A program made the position numbers and the translations under genes. A stretch of 58,146 nt of DNA from assembly GCF_002414845.1 (NCBI RefSeq), contig NZ_DIAX01000051.1, positions 14,890 to 73,035 of the forward strand, given 5' to 3'. This DNA is from Gordonia sp. UBA5067 (GTDB lineage Bacteria > Actinomycetota > Actinomycetes > Mycobacteriales > Mycobacteriaceae). Numbering within the stretch: position 1 is the first letter of the stretch; every line of letters starts with the position of its first letter. A model generated the notes under the pieces. That model had not been told where the DNA came from, searched no databases, and saw only the letters and a program-made list of their open reading frames with translations. This document shows positions 3,425-53,782 of the stretch, one piece after another.

Positions 3425-5508
<2,084 letters not shown>

Positions 5509-7342: not shown

Positions 7343-7972
7343 CTACGTGGCGTCGCCCTCGACCGCAAACGCCACTATCGCTTTGACGAGTGTGCGCCGT
7401 TGCGCCGACGCCGGCGATGCCTCCGGCTCCAGAAGCCAGCGCAACACGTAGCCGTCCATGAAGTTCATCGCAAATAGCCCCAGCTCATCAACATCGATCG
7501 CCCAGTTCACCCTCGCGACCTCGGCGCACGTAACCAGCATCGCCGTGATGTAGGCAGTATTCAATCGGTACTGGAGCAGAGCGGTGTCGAGTATGGGACC
7601 ACCGCCACGGATGCCGTTGGTGGCGATCTCGTAGGTCACCAACCGCCGTGTCGGCGTCGAAGAGATGATCCCCCACCAGGACTCCACGGCCTGGGTCAAC
7701 AGGTTGTCCAGGCCCGCAACTCCACGCATGTCTGTTGCACCGGGCGGTAACTGTCCAGCGACTTGAACCACCTGATCAGCCAATTCCAGAGCCACTGCAC
7801 GAACCAGTTCGTCCTTGCTCGGATAGAAGTACTGCAGCGTGCCCAAGGAGACACCGGCGGCCACCGCGACATCCCTCATCGTGAACGACGAGAACCCTAA
7901 CCGCTCGGCCAACTCGACCGCCGCTTCGAGCAACTGCCGCCGCCTGGCCGAGGCTGTCATCCGTGGAGCCAC
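7343..7972 (-). CDS. TetR/AcrR-family transcriptional regulator
   Basis: A 209-residue repressor-type protein. The N-terminal helix-turn-helix is clear (FTMRDVAVAAGVSLGTLQYF, about residues 31-50), followed by a C-terminal ligand/dimer domain with a TetR_C-like stretch. The GTG at 7972 is preferred because a minus-strand promoter (-35 TTGGAC at 8007-8002, -10 TACCCT at 7985-7980) places the transcript start at or next to it, which would give a leaderless mRNA; an internal ATG at 7960 is the alternative. It diverges from three exported-protein genes, with a triple palindrome between them, and is the obvious candidate to bind it. The ligand is unknown. Confidence 0.92.
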   Translation of the reverse strand: MAPRMTASARRRQLLEAAVELAERLGFSSFTMRDVAVAAGVSLGTLQYFYPSKDELVRAVALELADQVVQVAGQLPPGATDMRGVAGLDNLLTQAVESWWGIISSTPTRRLVTYEIATNGIRGGGPILDTALLQYRLNTAYITAMLVTCAEVARVNWAIDVDELGLFAMNFMDGYVLRWLLEPEASPASAQRRTLVKAIVAFAVEGDAT

Positions 7973-7979
7973 GAGGTTG

Positions 7980-8007
7980 AGGGTAGCTCTGCGTCCACCC
8001 AGTCCAA
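7980..8007 (-). promoter_or_regulatory. Candidate promoter of the TetR gene, leaderless
   Basis: On the minus strand, TTGGAC (8007-8002), a 16-base spacer and TACCCT (7985-7980) lie 7 bases before the GTG start at 7972. This is the spacing expected for a leaderless actinobacterial transcript. It is a motif reading only. Confidence 0.5.
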
Positions 8008-8034
8008 GAAGTTCGATCGGTTGACCATCGGTAT

Positions 8035-8090
8035 TCGTACGATTTTGGTATCTGTCAGTCGTACGATTATGGTATCTGTCAGTCGTACGA
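8035..8090. promoter_or_regulatory. Triple TCGTACGA operator array
   Basis: The 8-bp palindrome TCGTACGA occurs three times at exactly 24-bp intervals (8035-8042, 8059-8066, 8083-8090). The first two 24-bp units are identical except for one base; the third diverges after the palindrome. An 11-bp inverted repeat CTGTC-C-GACAG follows at 8095-8105. The array lies in the 189-bp divergent gap between the TetR gene and the exported-protein genes, so it is most likely the TetR operator. Binding is inference. Confidence 0.7.
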
Positions 8091-8161
8091 TAAGTCTGTC
8101 CGACAGTCGGTCGCAGTCCTACCCTCGACTCCTAGAACTCGCAACGAAAGGCCAGTTGAGA

Positions 8162-8434
8162 ATGAAGAGATTAGCCTCGAGTCATCGCCGGATATTCGGC
8201 GCCACAGTCGTCATCGGTGCGCTTTTCACCGGTTCCGTAGCCGGAGCATCCATCGCCGCTGCGGACGACGGCCCACCGGAACCCGGTCAGAATCAGATGC
8301 AGGGCCCCAACAGTGGGCCACCCGAGCCCGGCCAGAATCAGTTTCAAGGTCCCGGACAGACGCCAAGCCCGAAGAAGCCCGCACCGAAGGCCGGATTCTG
8401 GTTAGGTCCGTTCTGGATCGCTACCGATTCCTAA
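8162..8434 (+). CDS. Small exported Pro/Gln-rich protein with internal repeat
   Basis: A 90-residue pre-protein. It has a basic N-terminus, a hydrophobic core and a likely cleavage after SIAAA near residue 34. The mature part contains a tandem duplication, GPPEPGQNQMQGPNS then GPPEPGQNQFQGPGQ, a Lys/Pro linker and an aromatic tail FWLGPFWIATDS. No family is recognised. The ATG at 8162 is preceded by GAAAGG; the frame stays open upstream through the operator array, but that part is not plausible protein. It is first of three genes for small exported proteins and ends 7 bases before a strong terminator hairpin. Confidence 0.8.
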   Translation: MKRLASSHRRIFGATVVIGALFTGSVAGASIAAADDGPPEPGQNQMQGPNSGPPEPGQNQFQGPGQTPSPKKPAPKAGFWLGPFWIATDS

Positions 8435-8440
8435 GCTAGA

Positions 8441-8470
8441 GCGCCCCCCACCTCGGTGGGGGGCGCCTTT
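8441..8470 (+). terminator. Rho-independent terminator-like hairpin
   Basis: A perfect GC-rich stem (8441-8451 with 8456-8466, tetraloop) is followed by CTTTGT. It would end or attenuate transcription after the first small exported-protein gene, so the second and third genes may be expressed at a lower level or from their own promoter. Confidence 0.7.
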
Positions 8471-8504
8471 GTATGTCGCCCCGCGAAAGGACTGCAGAAC
8501 CACA

Positions 8505-8906
8505 ATGAATAAAGATGCATATTCTCGACGCCGCGCACTGATCACTCTCGCCGCCGCCGGGCTAATTCCGGGCATCGTGGGCGGTGCCTCCCAGGCTCAG
8601 GCCGAAACCTTCACCATCAACGCGGTCGCAGACGGCAACACCATCGCAGCCAGCTCGTTCGGCGCTCCCGAATGGGGCGATCCAGACAACAACGGCTGCG
8701 CCCTGGTAGACGTTGGCCGCGGCCGAGTCATCGGATCTGGAAATCGCGATAGCGCCAACCCCGGCCGCATCTACATCAAAAGTGAACCAGTGGCGAACGG
8801 CACATATACGGTCGCCATCCGGTGCTACACCGGATTCTACTCGTCTTCGGTGGTCTCCAACCGTGTCGTCGTCACCGTTCCCGGAGCTCCGGGGTTCGGC
8901 AGCTAG
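8505..8906 (+). CDS. Exported protein with Tat-like signal
   Basis: A 133-residue pre-protein. The N-terminus carries SRRRALITLAAAG, a plausible twin-arginine signal, with cleavage after the AQA near residue 33. The mature domain is about 100 residues, Ser/Val/Asn-rich, with alternating hydrophobic strands and two Cys (NNGCALVDV and IRCYTGFY) that could form a disulfide, reminiscent of a small beta-sandwich. No family is recognised. The ATG at 8505 follows GCGAAAGG at some distance. It lies between two other small exported-protein genes on the same strand. Confidence 0.8.
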   Translation: MNKDAYSRRRALITLAAAGLIPGIVGGASQAQAETFTINAVADGNTIAASSFGAPEWGDPDNNGCALVDVGRGRVIGSGNRDSANPGRIYIKSEPVANGTYTVAIRCYTGFYSSSVVSNRVVVTVPGAPGFGS

Positions 8907-8948
8907 TCTCCACACTCCCCGAGTTGCCTGAAACTAAAGGACCTTATC

Positions 8949-9335
8949 GTGAGACTTGTACGCAATTCCAGGCTCGCCGTTGCCATTGCAACGATCACAG
9001 CGTTCGGCGGCCTCGTGATCGGCGGCGTCGTGAATGGCAGTGGCGGAGCGGTTGCCGACGTAAATCCGCCATCGCACCACGGGTTCGGCGCATTCAATCC
9101 GAAGCTGCACAAACAAGGCGACCGGTGCACCGCTGCCGGGCGCCGCGGCGTGTGGGTGGTGGACCATTCGAAGTCGAACCACCGCTGGGTCTGCGACACC
9201 GACGACGGCCTGCCCACCTTCAACCCCAGCGCGCACGCAAAAGGTGATTCCTGCACGAGCAACGGCCGAGTCGGCGGGTGGATGCCCATCGATAGCGGAC
9301 ACGGGCGGGAGTGGGTGTGTTACACCGACCGCTGA
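8949..9335 (+). CDS. Exported protein with two copies of a Cys/Trp motif
   Basis: A 128-residue pre-protein with a signal peptide ending around AVADV (residue 37). The mature part holds two copies of a roughly 30-residue unit with the pattern H-x2-GD-x-C-T...W...R-x-WVC-x-TD (about residues 54-85 and 96-127), each with one Cys pair. The GTG at 8949 has AAAGGA 6 bases upstream. The repeat architecture suggests a small disulfide-stabilised extracellular binding module, but I recognise no family. It is last of the three-gene exported-protein group downstream of the TCGTACGA array. Confidence 0.8.
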   Translation: MRLVRNSRLAVAIATITAFGGLVIGGVVNGSGGAVADVNPPSHHGFGAFNPKLHKQGDRCTAAGRRGVWVVDHSKSNHRWVCDTDDGLPTFNPSAHAKGDSCTSNGRVGGWMPIDSGHGREWVCYTDR

Positions 9336-9430
9336 GCATGCCCGGTGCATGTCAAATCACCATTTCCTGACATGCACCGAACGTGGTTGTCGCCGCGCAG
9401 CGCATGCAAGATTCGCGTAGCGTGTTCCCA

Positions 9431-10186
9431 ATGCTGGGGCTGCCCGAATCCGTCACCGTTGCACTCTTCGACCTCGACGGTGTGTTGACAGACACCGCCT
9501 CGGTCCACCTGACCGCGTGGACCGAGGCGTTCAACAACCTCCTGCCCGACATCGTCGACGACGACGGCCACACCCCGGCGCCGTTCACCGAGTCCGACTA
9601 CCGCGCGCATGTCGACGGGCGGCCCCGCGAAGACGGTATCAACGCCTTCCTCGCCGCCCGCCGGATCACCGTCGACCCCGATACCGTCGCAAAACTGGGG
9701 CAGGCGAAGAACCGCCGCTTTCTGGCAATCCTCGATCGCGACGGCGTGACCCCCTACCCCGACGCCGTCGCCTACCTGCACGCCGCCCGCGACGCCGGCC
9801 TGGGCATCGCCGTGGTGACCTCGTCGCGCAACGGTGGACCCGTCCTCGAGGCCGCCGGTCTGACCGAGTTCGTCGCGGTTCGGGTCGACGGCAACGACAT
9901 CGTCGAGCGCCACCTCGCGGGCAAACCCGCACCCGACTCCTTTCTGCTCGGCGCAGAGCTGATGGGCGTTGGCCCCGCGGGTGCCGCCGTCTTCGAGGAC
10001 GCGGTATCCGGGGTGGCGGCCGGATCTGCGGGCGACTTCGCCGCCGTGATCGGCGTCGACCGCACCACGAGCGAAACCCAGCCGAGCCCGCACGCCAAGG
10101 ATCTCGCCGGCGCGGGTGCGACCGACGTCGTCACCAGCCTGGACCGGCTGCGCATCGGCGGGCAGCCGGAAGGAGCACCGCAATGA
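9431..10186 (+). CDS. HAD hydrolase, beta-phosphoglucomutase family
   Basis: About 251 residues. The HAD motif I FDLDGVLTDT (near residue 12) is followed by an alpha-helical cap, motif II VVTSSRNG, Lys in the GKPAPDSF segment and motif IV FEDAVSGV. This is the beta-PGM-type layout, and with the downstream GH65 gene it would convert beta-glucose 1-phosphate to glucose 6-phosphate. The stop overlaps the GH65 start (ATGA). Start choice is uncertain: ATG 9431 precedes the first strand directly, but upstream GTGs at 9422 and 9383 are in frame. A comparable pair, Rv3400/Rv3401, exists in M. tuberculosis (recalled). Confidence 0.87.
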   Translation: MLGLPESVTVALFDLDGVLTDTASVHLTAWTEAFNNLLPDIVDDDGHTPAPFTESDYRAHVDGRPREDGINAFLAARRITVDPDTVAKLGQAKNRRFLAILDRDGVTPYPDAVAYLHAARDAGLGIAVVTSSRNGGPVLEAAGLTEFVAVRVDGNDIVERHLAGKPAPDSFLLGAELMGVGPAGAAVFEDAVSGVAAGSAGDFAAVIGVDRTTSETQPSPHAKDLAGAGATDVVTSLDRLRIGGQPEGAPQ

Positions 10187-29240: not shown

Positions 29241-29279
29241 CACAGCCCACGCATAGCTTTGACCTAGCAATTGCATAGC
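29241..29279 (+). promoter_or_regulatory. Four 11-bp-phased CATAGC-like repeats (response-regulator box)
   Basis: CACAGC (29241), CATAGC (29252), CCTAGC (29263) and CATAGC (29274) start exactly 11 bases apart, all in the same orientation. This is the spacing and near-sequence of PhoP-type boxes in mycobacteria (CACAGC direct repeats, 11-bp period). The array ends about 10 bases before a -10-like GATACT (29289-29294), where an activating OmpR-family regulator would sit. The autoregulation call is inference. Confidence 0.7.
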
Positions 29280-29294
29280 CGGACGGCGGATACT

Positions 29295-30035
29295 GTGACG
29301 GTGGTGTCGACAACTCCCCAACGGCTGATGCTGACCCGCACTGACGGTTCTCCCATCAGTGCGCTGGTCGTCGACGATGAGGCGGTCCTCGCCGAGATGG
29401 TCTCGATGGCCCTTCGCTACGAGGGCTGGACGGTGACGACCGCCGGCGACGGCGCCTCGGCCATTGCCGCGGCCCGCGAGTGCCGTCCCGACATCGTCAT
29501 CCTCGACGTCATGCTCCCCGACCTGAGTGGCCTCGAAGTCCTGCTCCGGTTGCGGAAGCTCAATCCGGCACTGCCGGTCCTCATGCTGACCGCGAAGGAC
29601 TCCGTCGAGGACAGAATCGCCGGACTCACCGCCGGTGGCGACGACTACGTCACCAAGCCGTTCAGCATCGAGGAGGTGGTGTTGCGTTTGCGGGCGCTGC
29701 TGCGCCGGGCGGGCATCACCACCGACGATGGTGACTCGCAACTCGTCGTCGGGGATCTCGTCCTCGACGAGGACAGCCACGAGGTCGCCCGCGACGGCGA
29801 ATCGGTGACCCTGACCTCCACCGAGTTCGAACTGCTGCGCTTCCTCATGCACAACCCTAAGCGGGTGCTCTCCAAGGCGCAGATCCTCGACCGGGTATGG
29901 GACTACGATTTCGGCGGACGCTCGAACATCGTCGAGCTCTACATCTCTTATCTGCGCAGAAAGATTGATGACGGCCGGGAACCGATGATCCACACGGTGC
30001 GCGGCGCCGGATATGTCCTCAAGCCCGCCCGCTAA
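29295..30035 (+). CDS. OmpR-family response regulator (PhoP/TrcR-like)
   Basis: A 246-residue response regulator. The receiver domain has the DDE acidic pair near residue 28, the phospho-acceptor Asp in ILDVMLPD (about residue 71), and Lys in YVTKPFS. The C-terminal winged helix ends with SNIVELYISYLRRKID and HTVRGAGYVLKP, typical of the OmpR/PhoB class. The phrase GGDDYVTKPFSIEEVVLRLR is very close to mycobacterial PhoP/TrcR. Start uncertain: GTG 29295 has GGCGGA upstream, but GTG 29301 or 29304 fit a leaderless transcript from GATACT. It overlaps the kinase gene by 23 bases. Confidence 0.94.
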   Translation: MTVVSTTPQRLMLTRTDGSPISALVVDDEAVLAEMVSMALRYEGWTVTTAGDGASAIAAARECRPDIVILDVMLPDLSGLEVLLRLRKLNPALPVLMLTAKDSVEDRIAGLTAGGDDYVTKPFSIEEVVLRLRALLRRAGITTDDGDSQLVVGDLVLDEDSHEVARDGESVTLTSTEFELLRFLMHNPKRVLSKAQILDRVWDYDFGGRSNIVELYISYLRRKIDDGREPMIHTVRGAGYVLKPAR

Positions 30036-31524
30036 CCCTGCCCGACGCCGGGGGTCGCCGGCCACGTGGCCGTTGCGCACCCAGCTTCTGGTCGGCCAGG
30101 TCATCCTCCTCGCCCTGGTGTGCCTCGCAATCGGCACCGTCACCGAACTCGCGCTGCGCCACTATCTCGTCAATCAGCTCGACGAGGAACTGCGTGAAGT
30201 CTCGCACCGCTCGACGATGATGGCGGCCTCGCCCGCAGTCCCGGAGCCGCCCCGGCATTCTCGGCGCCAACAGGCCGGTCCCGGTCCGGAGTTTCTCGAC
30301 GCCGCCGGCCAGCCCGCCGGCTTGATCGCCGCAGTCGTCCCGAATGATGGCCAGGTCGCCGCCGGTTCCCTCGACAGCCATGGTGCGCGGCACAGTCTGA
30401 GCGACGACGAGGTCGCGCAGCTGGCCGCGGTGATTCCCAGCCCGGCACCGACCACGGTGCCGATCGGCGACCGCGGCCAGTATCGGGTGATCGCCACCAC
30501 CACCCCGAAGGACGATGTCGTGGTGACCGGACTTCCGCTGGCCGACATCAACAACACGATGTGGACGGCGCTGCTGATCATGACCGTGGTTGCCCTCGGC
30601 GCACTCCTGGCCGCGGCCACGCTCGGAGCCGCGATCACTCGCCGGGCACTCGCGCCGCTGCATCGGGTCGCCGCGACGGCCCGCGAGGTCGTCGAACTGC
30701 CACTCGACCGCGGCGAGGTGATCCTTCCGGTCCGTGTCCCCGAGGCCAACGCCGACCCCAACACCGAGATCGGCCAGATGGGCTCGGCGCTGAACCGGAT
30801 GCTCGACCACATCGGCACCGCGCTGGCGACCCGTCAGGCCAGCGAAAGCCGGGCCCGTCAGTTCGTCGCCGATGCCAGTCACGAGTTGCGCACTCCGCTG
30901 GCCGCGATTCGCGGCTACACCGAATTGTCCCGCCGGCGCCGCGCCGACGTGCCCGATGAGGTGGCCCACGCGATGGGGCGGGTGCAATCGGAATCCGATC
31001 GGATGACCCACCTGGTCGAAGACCTGTTGCTGCTCGCCCGACTGGACTCCGGGCGTCCACTCGAACGCGAAAAGGTCGACCTGTCGAACCTGGCCGTCGA
31101 CGCGGTGAGCGACGCCCACGTCGCCGGACCCGACCACAGCTGGAACCTCGACCTGCCCGACGAGCCCGTGGTTGTCGTCGGCGATGCGGCTCGCCTACAC
31201 CAGGTGCTGGCCAATCTGCTCGGCAACGCGCGGGTGCACACCCCGCCCGGTAGCACGGTGACCGTCGAGCTCACCTCGACCGCCGACCGTGCCGCGTTGC
31301 GGGTGACCGACGACGGGCCCGGGATAGACCCGGCCCTGCAGTCGGAGGTGTTCACCCGGTTCGCACGGGGCGACACGTCTCGCTCGCGCAAGGCCGGTAG
31401 CACGGGATTGGGCTTGTCCATCGTCGATGCGGTCGTCAAGGCCCACGGCGGCACCATCGCACTGCGCAGCCGGCCGGGAGCCACCGAATTCACCGTGAGC
31501 ATCCCGGTAGACGCATCCGCCTGA
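30013..31524 (+). CDS. Sensor histidine kinase, partner of the OmpR-type regulator
   Basis: A 503-residue membrane kinase. Membrane segment 1 is at about residues 23-46, an extracytoplasmic sensor region of about 130 residues follows, and membrane segment 2 is at about 180-205. Then come HAMP, the HisKA dimer domain with the phospho-His in DASHELRTP (His 290), and the ATPase domain with N (LANLLGNARVHT), G1 (DDGPGID) and G2 (GLGLSI) boxes. ATG 30013 lies inside the end of the regulator gene. The signal is unknown. The operon probably ends at the hairpin at 31571-31605. Confidence 0.95.
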   Translation: MSSSPPANPARRRGSPATWPLRTQLLVGQVILLALVCLAIGTVTELALRHYLVNQLDEELREVSHRSTMMAASPAVPEPPRHSRRQQAGPGPEFLDAAGQPAGLIAAVVPNDGQVAAGSLDSHGARHSLSDDEVAQLAAVIPSPAPTTVPIGDRGQYRVIATTTPKDDVVVTGLPLADINNTMWTALLIMTVVALGALLAAATLGAAITRRALAPLHRVAATAREVVELPLDRGEVILPVRVPEANADPNTEIGQMGSALNRMLDHIGTALATRQASESRARQFVADASHELRTPLAAIRGYTELSRRRRADVPDEVAHAMGRVQSESDRMTHLVEDLLLLARLDSGRPLEREKVDLSNLAVDAVSDAHVAGPDHSWNLDLPDEPVVVVGDAARLHQVLANLLGNARVHTPPGSTVTVELTSTADRAALRVTDDGPGIDPALQSEVFTRFARGDTSRSRKAGSTGLGLSIVDAVVKAHGGTIALRSRPGATEFTVSIPVDASA

Positions 31525-31570
31525 AACCTTCCGCACCTGGCATCCCCGGCGATGGCCCCCTACCGAAAAC

Positions 31571-31605
31571 GACCCCGGTCCCGCCTGGAGGGCGGGACCG
31601 GGGTC
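31571..31605. terminator. Bidirectional terminator hairpin
   Basis: A perfect 15-bp stem (31571-31585 with 31591-31605) with a 5-base loop. On the minus strand it is followed by GTTTTC. It separates the kinase gene from the convergent 35-residue peptide gene and probably ends both. Confidence 0.8.
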
Positions 31606-31620
31606 GTTGCGCGCGAAGTC

Positions 31621-31728
31621 TTACTTCTTGCCCTTCGGCTTCGACTTCGTCTTGGTCTTGGTCTGCACAGGCTGCGGGAAGCGGTGGCGGACCTGGGGCT
31701 TCTGGGTGCTGGTCAGGTGACGGAACAT
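31621..31728 (-). CDS. 35-residue basic small protein
   Basis: A short gene that size filters would miss. ATG 31728 is preceded by GAGGAG at good spacing. The peptide starts MFRHLTSTQKPQVRHRF and its second half is an alternating Lys/Thr/Ser stretch ending KPKGKK, net charge strongly positive, with no membrane segment. The stop is followed 16 bases later by a strong terminator hairpin. About 90 bases upstream of the start is a two-copy CATAGC repeat matching the array at the two-component promoter. No family is recognised; nucleic-acid or ribosome binding is possible from composition. Confidence 0.7.
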   Translation of the reverse strand: MFRHLTSTQKPQVRHRFPQPVQTKTKTKSKPKGKK

Positions 31729-31817
31729 GGTGACTCCTCGTTAACTGTGTTGAACTCAGGTGGTTGGCCTGACTCCACTGACGTTATGAGGCCCAAATTT
31801 GTGTCAGTCCTGTCTTA

Positions 31818-31834
31818 GCTATGAAATTGCTATG
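31818..31834 (-). promoter_or_regulatory. CATAGC-N5-CATAGC box upstream of the basic peptide gene
   Basis: On the minus strand CATAGC occurs twice with 11-bp phase (GCTATG at 31818-31823 and 31829-31834 on the plus strand). Sequence and spacing equal those of the array at 29241-29279. It is positioned about 90 bases upstream of the 35-residue gene and points the same way, so that gene is the candidate target. Confidence 0.65.
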
Positions 31835-53098: not shown

Positions 53099-53782
53099 TC
53101 AGGGCGGCGTCTCCCGAAGCACATATCCGACGCCGCGCACGGTATGGATCAGTCGGCGTTCACCCTCGGCCTCAGTCTTGCGGCGCAGATAGCCGACATA
53201 GACTTCCAGCGCATTGCCCGACGTCGGAAAGTCGTAGCCCCACACCTCTTCGAGGATCCGGCTGCGGGACAGGACTCGCCGCGGGTTGGCCATCAACATC
53301 TCCAGGAGTGCGAACTCGGTGCGCGTCAGGCTGATCGCCCGGTCGCCCCGGGTGACGTCGCGGGTCACCGGATCCAAGCGCAGATCCTCGAACTCCAGCG
53401 CCTCGGAGTCCTCCTCCTCCGGTGTCGCGCGGCGCAACAGGGCGCGCAACCGCGCAAGAAGCTCTTCGAGGGCGAACGGTTTGGCCAGGTAGTCGTCGGC
53501 GCCGGCATCGAGACCGGCCACCCGTTCGGACACCGAGTCGCGCGCGGTGAGGACCAGGATCGGCAGATCGTCGCCGGCCGATCGGAGGCGGCGGCAGACC
53601 TCGAGTCCGTCCATCCGCGGCATCATGACGTCGAGGAGTAGGACGTCGGGACGTTGCGCCACGACTTTTTCCAGCGCTTCGAGCCCGTCCCCCCCGGTGT
53701 CGACGGTGTAGCCGTTGAAGGTCAACGACCTGCGCAACGACTCGCGCACCGCACGATCGTCATCCACCACCAGAATCCGCAT
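53099..53782 (-). CDS. mprA: Response regulator MprA
   Basis: A 227-residue OmpR-family regulator. The receiver has VVDDDRAV, the phospho-acceptor Asp 51 in LLLDVMMP and Lys in YLAKPFA. The C-terminal winged helix ends [15 protein letters not shown] and [13 protein letters not shown]. First gene of mprA-mprB-pepD-moaB2. In mycobacteria MprA controls sigE, pepD and its own operon. Confidence 0.95.

Follow-up and report, generated by a model that had tools for sequence, protein, structure and literature searches.

Introduction

The response regulator TcrX of Mycobacterium tuberculosis autoregulates and directly binds the promoters of tarA and tarB, in which the authors of the 2024 study recognised no motif (PMC10883919). 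As published, the TcrX operator consists of a 7-bp mirror repeat, the second half of which extends into the −10 element; both halves are needed for binding, and an atypical mechanism of TcrX binding was suggested (PMC10883919). The box of PhoP is TCACAGC-N4-TCACAGC, and in the PhoP–DNA structure a tandem dimer occupies direct repeats with a fixed spacer (PMC4832192). This analysis concerns a 58,146-nucleotide stretch of Gordonia sp. UBA5067 (contig NZ_DIAX01000051.1, positions 14,890–73,035 of the forward strand), termed here the window. It carries a regulator/kinase operon of the TcrXY type and two arrays of CATAGC-like hexamers, one ahead of the operon and one ahead of a 35-codon gene beyond the kinase gene. 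The hexamer array is probably the operator of the TcrX-type regulator, which would act through it on its own operon and directly activate the gene for the small basic peptide. This reading is drawn from sequence comparison. The features of the locus (window coordinates) are:

29241..29279, plus strand: putative operator array of four units with an 11-bp period, ahead of the response regulator gene; conserved in relatives
29289..29294, plus strand: probable −10 element (GATACT) of the regulator promoter, 48 bp from the start of hexamer 1
29295..30035, plus strand: TcrX-type response regulator of the OmpR/PhoB family, assigned by domains and orthologues; start codon GTG at 29295, 29301 or 29304
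30013..31524, plus strand: sensor histidine kinase of the TcrY type with HAMP, HisKA and HATPase_c domains; its gene overlaps that of the regulator
31570..31606, minus strand: G+C-rich hairpin followed by TTTT, the likely terminator of the small gene, which is convergent with the kinase gene (by eye)
31621..31728, minus strand: small gene, 35 amino acids (aa), MFRHLTSTQKPQVRHRFPQPVQTKTKTKSKPKGKK, isoelectric point (pI) 12, ribosome-binding site GAGGAG, no Pfam or NCBIfam match
31781..31786, minus strand: TAACGT, probably the −10 element of the small gene, lying 48 bp from where the first hexamer starts
31818..31834, minus strand: CATAGC-N5-CATAGC, a perfect pair and putative operator upstream of the small gene

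Phased hexamers in two promoters

The four CATAGC-like hexamers that an initial annotation of this DNA had placed at 29241, 29252, 29263 and 29274 are found at exactly these positions. The plus strand reads CACAGC-CCACG-CATAGC-TTTGA-CCTAGC-AATTG-CATAGC from 29241 to 29279, with CACAGC at 29241–29246, CATAGC at 29252–29257, CCTAGC at 29263–29268 and CATAGC at 29274–29279; two of the four units match CATAGC exactly, and each of the other two deviates at one base. The second array, 2.6 kb away, reads CATAGC-AATTT-CATAGC on the minus strand from 31834 to 31818. It consists, as had also been claimed, of two perfect copies with the same spacing that face the small gene beyond the kinase, and the window contains no other perfect CATAGC pair. 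Both arrays display the direct repeats at a 10–11 bp period that characterize tandem operators of the OmpR/PhoB type.

Since both −10 elements are 48 bp from the first hexamer, the first two hexamers occupy matching places in the two promoters, at about −60 and −49 relative to inferred start sites. A possible TTG start of the regulator at 29271 falls within the array; thus the real start should be one of the three GTG codons. The layout suggests that the regulator transcript is probably leaderless and starts at GTG 29301 or 29304.

The exact features of the arrays exceed those of 300 windows simulated with a first-order Markov model: no simulated four-unit array had fewer than 6 mismatches in total (2 observed), and a perfect pair was present in 0/300 (1 observed). 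Loosely matched pairs are not striking, i.e. 4 pairs with ≤2 mismatches are present against a shuffle mean of 1.60, and 9 of 100 shuffles reach 4.

Identity of the regulator

The regulator has a receiver and a winged-helix (Trans_reg_C) domain and lies in an operon with a histidine kinase, as do TcrX-type regulators. Its nearest relatives among named genomes are 42 mycobacterial loci (74%–81% identity). Orthologues with 84%–88% identity are present in 4 of the 58 other genomes of the genus; at E ≤ 1e-80, 5/59 genomes are positive, the window genome included. The best relative with a solved structure is M. tuberculosis PhoP (258 bits). The window regulator is, however, not the best PhoP match of its genome (termed G000), as a separate PhoP orthologue (G000:C55:3290-3976) gives 388 bits to M. 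tuberculosis PhoP versus 258.

In mycobacteria, tcrXY is followed by lpqH. An lpqH-type gene is found after the kinase gene, and convergent with it, in M. simulans (L006), and about 2.3 kb from the regulator box in G083–G086 (M. gastri, M. simulans, M. angelicum and M. shimoidei). The regulator is called TcrX-type because of this gene order in mycobacterial loci and because a separate PhoP orthologue is present in the same genome. On these comparisons, in which M. tuberculosis TcrX lay outside the sequences compared, the window regulator is TcrX-type and not PhoP. In the window the kinase gene is not convergent with lpqH; its partner is the basic-peptide gene, and the one lpqH-type gene found is on another contig (G000:C6). 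The lpqH search gave no match in 14 control genomes. Across 396 genomes the best match to an LpqH fragment has 93% identity, so the M. tuberculosis genome is not among them. The lpqH synteny is mycobacterial and is not expected to define the family in Gordonia.

A second OmpR-type regulator is encoded at window positions 53114–53779 (minus strand). It is 50% identical to the TcrX-type one and presumably MprA-like; its 3.7-kb locus (L192) contains no CAYAGC pair.

Conservation of the box ahead of TcrX-type regulators

A set of 85 TcrX-type loci was compared, consisting of 80 among the matches listed (42 mycobacterial, 38 other actinobacterial), 4 Gordonia-group loci and the window. A box was scored as a forward pair with ≤1 mismatch to CAYAGC, ≤250 bp upstream of the regulator, at spacings of 7–16. 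With spacing 11 a box is present in 36/42 mycobacterial, 4/5 Gordonia-group (window included) and 11/38 other actinobacterial loci. Spacings of 7–10 and 12–16 give 0 or 1 locus per group and the reversed motif gives none; the background expectation is 0.015 pairs per 250 nt, taken from the density outside upstream regions in mycobacterial loci. A CANAG/CANAG pair at 11 bp is found in 39/42 mycobacterial loci.

By eye, many mycobacterial promoters display TTCACAGC, then GCATAGS, a third CAYAGS and a weak fourth unit, followed by a GATACT-like element. An element resembling GATACT, CATACT or ATAAT is also found in mycobacterial loci at a place comparable to the −10 of the window promoter (by eye).

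Small basic-peptide genes in Gordonia

Tiny genes located at the cluster end and facing back are present in three of the four Gordonia-group relatives that have the regulator: one of 42 aa in G074, one of 59 aa in G062, and two (34 and 66 aa) in G008. Each has a purine-rich ribosome-binding site and a trailing hairpin (by eye). All five peptides, the window peptide included, have a pI of 12 and are rich in Lys/Arg/His and Pro, and two are also Gly-rich. Acidic residues are absent from each except the G074 peptide, which has 4.

A TANNNT sequence occurs exactly 48 bp from the first hexamer start in 5/5 of the peptide promoters, and the ATG is 105–113 bp from the same point in all five genes. 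A MAFFT alignment from the box to the −10 is gap-free in four promoters and shows one gap, within the −10, in that of one G008 gene (G008a). The G074 promoter reads CATAGG-N5-CATAGCT...TAACGTC and has much of the intervening sequence in common with the window.

The 42-aa G074 peptide is a known hypothetical protein, recorded for Gordonia sp., with one relative at 75%; Gordonia is accordingly the most likely genus of these genomes. A search with the 35-aa peptide in 60 relatives (without G062 and G074) gave two marginal matches, E = 0.0075 (with one stop inside) and E = 0.0089, and both were rejected. The Gordonia basic peptides are, in the best reading of these comparisons, a fast-evolving class.

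By eye, Gly-Pro-His-Arg runs in the 59- and 66-residue peptides of G062 and G008 (L099, L100) resemble a Gly/Pro/His-rich stretch of a G008 PMT protein (L199, gene 7635-9626).

tar-type, glycosyltransferase and other promoters

Further promoters with the box were selected from 52 perfect sites listed and from additional scans and do not represent a census. In L132 and L141, the site is ahead of a gene whose product is rich in Pro and His and has, by eye, a single membrane segment. The asd-like, Rv3707c-like gene order preceding both genes is taken here to mark Rv3706c, i.e. tarA. The two proteins compared directly give 55% over 47 residues (E = 5e-14), although the L141 protein is not among the matches of its genome in the L132 protein search at E ≤ 1e-5. 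That search gave matches in 91/148 genomes, and 30 tarA/tarB-type loci were examined.

The array is directly ahead of the tar-type gene in 27/30 loci, as a 22-bp pair in 27 and an 11-bp pair in 14. At any other spacing between 8 and 29 no more than 2 loci are positive, and on the opposite strand none is. In 19 of the 27 loci, with the match beginning at the ATG, the array starts 60–63 bp before this codon. In the remaining 3 loci the match is the second gene of a tandem; the array is 531–603 bp upstream, which is 73–80 bp ahead of the upstream tar-type match (in G187 this match contains a TAG). Thus the box precedes the tar-type gene, or the first of them, in 30/30 loci.

The box is also found ahead of PMT-type genes (assigned to PMT_2 by Pfam for L030 and L199) and of GT2-like genes (by eye), and starts 60–61 bp before the start codon in L030, L099, L138 and L199. 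Box-led GT2-like (by eye) and PMT/YkcB-type glycosyltransferase genes adjoin the regulator in L030, L034, L099, L100, L199 and other loci. In G008, a box is present as well ahead of a PMT gene ~5 kb from the PhoP-type regulator gene. No PMT/GT2-like genes lie beside the TcrX-type operon of the window (neighbourhood only; the rest of the genome was not searched). Judged by these sites, the reach of the box is wider than the initial annotation held, and extends to tar-type genes in mycobacteria and PMT/GT2-like glycosyltransferase genes.

Three M. gastri/M. simulans loci show further sites by eye: in two mycobacteria (L130 and L133) a perfect box precedes similar genes for proteins with several membrane segments, and in L134 a box is ahead of a kinase-like frame. 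Perfect sites in L129, L135, L137, L139 and L140 were left out of the targets, since the frames that contain or adjoin them are unclear.

Frequency of the pair in whole genomes

A genome scan for the pair had been proposed, chance frequency to count against its significance. The window genome (3.0 Mb, 91% complete) has 8 places with CATAGC-N5-CATAGC at ≤1 mismatch and 11 with the reversed pattern used as control, so there is no numerical excess. Four of the 8 places, including the sole perfect one, belong to the two window arrays. Perfect CAYAGC-N5-CAYAGC is present in 2 places, both of them the window arrays (control 5), and CAYAG-N6-CATAG in 3, the two arrays and one more (control 1). In number, then, the pair does not exceed the control, but the exact pairs sit at these two promoters. 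Genome-wide counts were rejected as regulon evidence, since perfect pairs exceed the control in 2/12 genomes only and near pairs do not exceed it in G000; the pattern alone does not define a regulon.

The third CAYAG-N6-CATAG site of the genome (G000:C43:39519-39534, L205) is 38 bp ahead of a polysaccharide-deacetylase lipoprotein gene (4558-5337, PF01522), a possible further target of the regulator on the basis of this site.

Evaluation of the proposed operator and of alternative explanations

Autoregulation together with direct control of the small basic gene, which the initial annotation had proposed, is the best-supported reading: the box is found at the same phase ahead of the relatives' regulators and of the pI-12 peptide genes in 3/4 Gordonia relatives. 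Several observations weigh against it. The opposite strand upstream of the regulator holds a pair in 6/42 mycobacterial, 0/5 Gordonia-group and 4/38 other loci. The CANAG pair is absent in three Mycolicibacter loci (L038, L040, L041) and in 21/38 other loci, all from Streptomyces, Streptacidiphilus or Kitasatospora. The promoter of the G074 regulator has no 11-bp pair within the one-mismatch limit, though CACAGC, CCTAGG and CATAGG are present in it at the 11-bp phase. In both G008 peptide promoters the first hexamer is weak, with 2 mismatches, and G005, whose regulator is 86% identical, has no box-led basic-peptide gene in the 10.5 kb examined. In the 3 tandem loci no separate array precedes the second tar gene, whereas binding of TcrX to the tarB promoter has been reported. 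Perfect pairs, as stated above, seldom outnumber the reversed control. Finally, the published TcrX site, where scrambling abolished binding, is a mirror repeat and not a direct repeat (PMC10883919).

Streptomyces loci without the CANAG pair (among L046–L078) often display, by eye, a TCTCAG/TCACAG-like array upstream with 11-bp phase. The recognition helix is NVVELYISYLRRK in 20 TcrX-type orthologues of Streptomyces loci in this range. In these loci the half-site sequence seems to have diverged with the phase retained.

The sites could instead belong to the PhoP paralogue, with the TcrX-type regulator merely one PhoP target. PhoP is autoregulated in mycobacteria, and an orthologue is present in the window genome; the PhoP-type loci and promoters of five Gordonia-group genomes, however, have no CAYAGC pair, and the box follows TcrX-type loci and the TcrX-bound tarA. 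The G008 box near the PhoP-type gene is a point in favor of PhoP, as is the overlap of its box, TCACAGC-N4-TCACAGC, with CACAGC-N5-CACAGC in the same 11-bp tandem architecture (PMC4832192). The likeness to PhoP boxes that the initial annotation had noted thus stands for the architecture (as an 11-bp tandem repeat, PMC4832192) and fails for the regulator, which is TcrX-type, and for the PhoP-type promoters without the box. PhoP contacts bases through Asn212, Val213, Glu215, Ser216, Tyr217 and Tyr220 of helix alpha-8; Asn212 touches the middle C of TCACAGC and Ser216 is beside the neighbouring base pair (PMC4832192). The recognition helix of the window regulator is NIVELYISYLRRK. At the six base-contacting positions it differs from PhoP in two (Val213 to Ile and Ser216 to Leu), and the Asn, the Glu and both Tyr are common to the two proteins. 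N-[IV]-V-E-L-Y is present in all 80 TcrX-type relatives among the matches listed, and N-V-V-E-S-Y in all five Gordonia-group PhoP-type regulators. Leu for Ser216, beside the neighbouring base pair, would fit the shift from CACAGC to CATAGC, and the middle T of CATAGC would go with the TcrX-type helix. It is quite unlikely that PhoP is the owner of the sites.

Could the small transcript act as an RNA, with the 35-codon frame incidental? Mcr7 of mycobacteria is a PhoP-regulated RNA, and the small gene is likewise a short monocistronic unit with its own promoter and terminator, whose peptide sequence is hardly conserved between genomes. Third-position G+C is low in the G062 (0.63) and G008b (0.61) frames, and in G008b an overlapping frame has 0.92. 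Against this, third-position G+C is 0.94, 0.83 and 0.85 in the window, G074 and G008a frames, the ATG lies behind a purine-rich ribosome-binding site at a near-constant distance from the box in all five genes, and the five products have the same basic, Pro-containing composition. The two frames with low G+C also have in common an MPRPG start and PFWGS at or near the end. The Rfam search gave nothing above threshold; its sole match, RF00624 (E = 0.57), is the terminator hairpin. A function as RNA is therefore unlikely. That the array is real at the regulator while the pair at 31818–31834 is a chance match agrees with the near-chance counts of loosely matched pairs. It is nevertheless highly improbable in view of the simulations without a perfect pair, of the G074 promoter, which keeps box, spacing and −10, and of the distance to the −10, equal to that in the regulator promoter.

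Proposed mechanism

The TcrX-type helix, together with the PhoP-type loci that lack the pair, leads to the proposal that the TcrX-type regulator activates the operon and the small gene directly and in a phosphorylation-dependent manner. The kinase would phosphorylate the regulator, which would then bind CAYAGC-N5-CAYAGC head-to-tail upstream of the −10, with each monomer taking up 11 bp and all of them aligned along the same helix face. The 11-bp phase of the box can be explained by the tandem dimer on direct repeats in the PhoP–DNA structure. From 29241–29279 the regulator would activate its own operon, and from 31834–31818 the monocistronic gene of the 35-residue, pI-12 peptide. The signal is probably acid, by analogy with M. 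tuberculosis TcrXY. The peptide might be a disordered, polycationic, proline-containing effector, with a logic like that of tarA/tarB, which at low pH would protect nucleic acid or protein through buffering or shielding; its role as a stress effector is a tentative suggestion, with the odds somewhat against it.

Comparison with known systems

The locus resembles TcrXY of M. tuberculosis in its regulator/kinase operon, in the proposed autoregulation and in small proline-rich target genes (PMC10883919). It differs in that an 11-bp-phased direct repeat is present at both kinds of promoter, while the published operator is a mirror repeat and the tarA/tarB promoters yielded no motif (PMC10883919). 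The Gordonia peptide, in addition, lacks a membrane segment (by eye) and is unrelated in sequence to TarA; the window peptide and the TarA-type protein of L132 give 11.9 bits (E = 0.86).

The published mirror repeat may be reconcilable with the direct repeat. A CATAG hexamer and the GATACT −10 form a mirror repeat in 4/42 mycobacterial promoters, e.g. CATAGGC/CGGATAC in L005 (the words were pre-filtered and there is no chance control). It is predicted that one CATAG hexamer and the GATACT −10 make up the two halves of the published repeat, the M. tuberculosis promoter itself being outside the present data. In that case scrambling of the first half would damage the array and scrambling of the second half the −10; damage to the −10 alone is no explanation for the loss of binding on scrambling the second half. 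A broader proposal, which has about an even chance of being correct, is that TcrX-type regulators across the Mycobacteriales read one 11-bp-phased operator (TCAYAGC repeats). This would be the missing tarA motif, the mirror repeat would be the hexamer/−10 pairing, and the Gordonia pI-12 peptides of 34–66 residues would be a lineage-specific acid-stress kind coupled to glycosyltransferases.

No direct-repeat TcrX operator was found in the open-access literature on TcrX, Rv3765c, Rv3706c and PhoP boxes, the coverage being partial and without the 2011 inverted-repeat paper. ChIP-seq data on Rv3765c used in PMC10312376 may hold a motif. Within the scope of these searches, both the direct-repeat operator and the class of basic peptides are new. 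If true, a phased direct repeat at the regulator and tar promoters would resolve the puzzle of motif-less TcrX binding in the 2024 study (PMC10883919). A conserved operator would also aid regulon prediction in both mycobacteria and Gordonia, and would point to tiny basic peptides as direct outputs of the regulator.

With M. tuberculosis PhoP the window regulator has in common the 11-bp tandem repeats arranged head-to-tail and the residues Asn212, Glu215, Tyr217 and Tyr220 (PMC4832192). It differs from PhoP by Leu for Ser216 and Ile for Val213, and by a motif in which the middle base of the second hexamer is mostly T. The tar-type proteins found here have tails resembling the hexose-bearing tails of Rv3706c and Rv3705A of M. 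tuberculosis (PMC7287972). Like TarA and TarB (Rv3706c/Rv3705A), the basic peptides are small, low-complexity products, Pro/His-rich in the case of the Tar proteins, encoded behind a TcrX-type 11-bp-phased box. TarA-type proteins, however, have ~106–140 aa and one membrane segment (by eye), whereas the window peptide has 35 aa and is Lys/Thr/Pro-rich. Among enterobacterial proteins, Asr is basic and disordered. RstA, an OmpR-family regulator, directly activates this acid-shock gene (asr of E. coli) in acid (PMC11135836), and the kinship of the Gordonia locus with RstA–Asr is one of logic only, with no sequence relation claimed.

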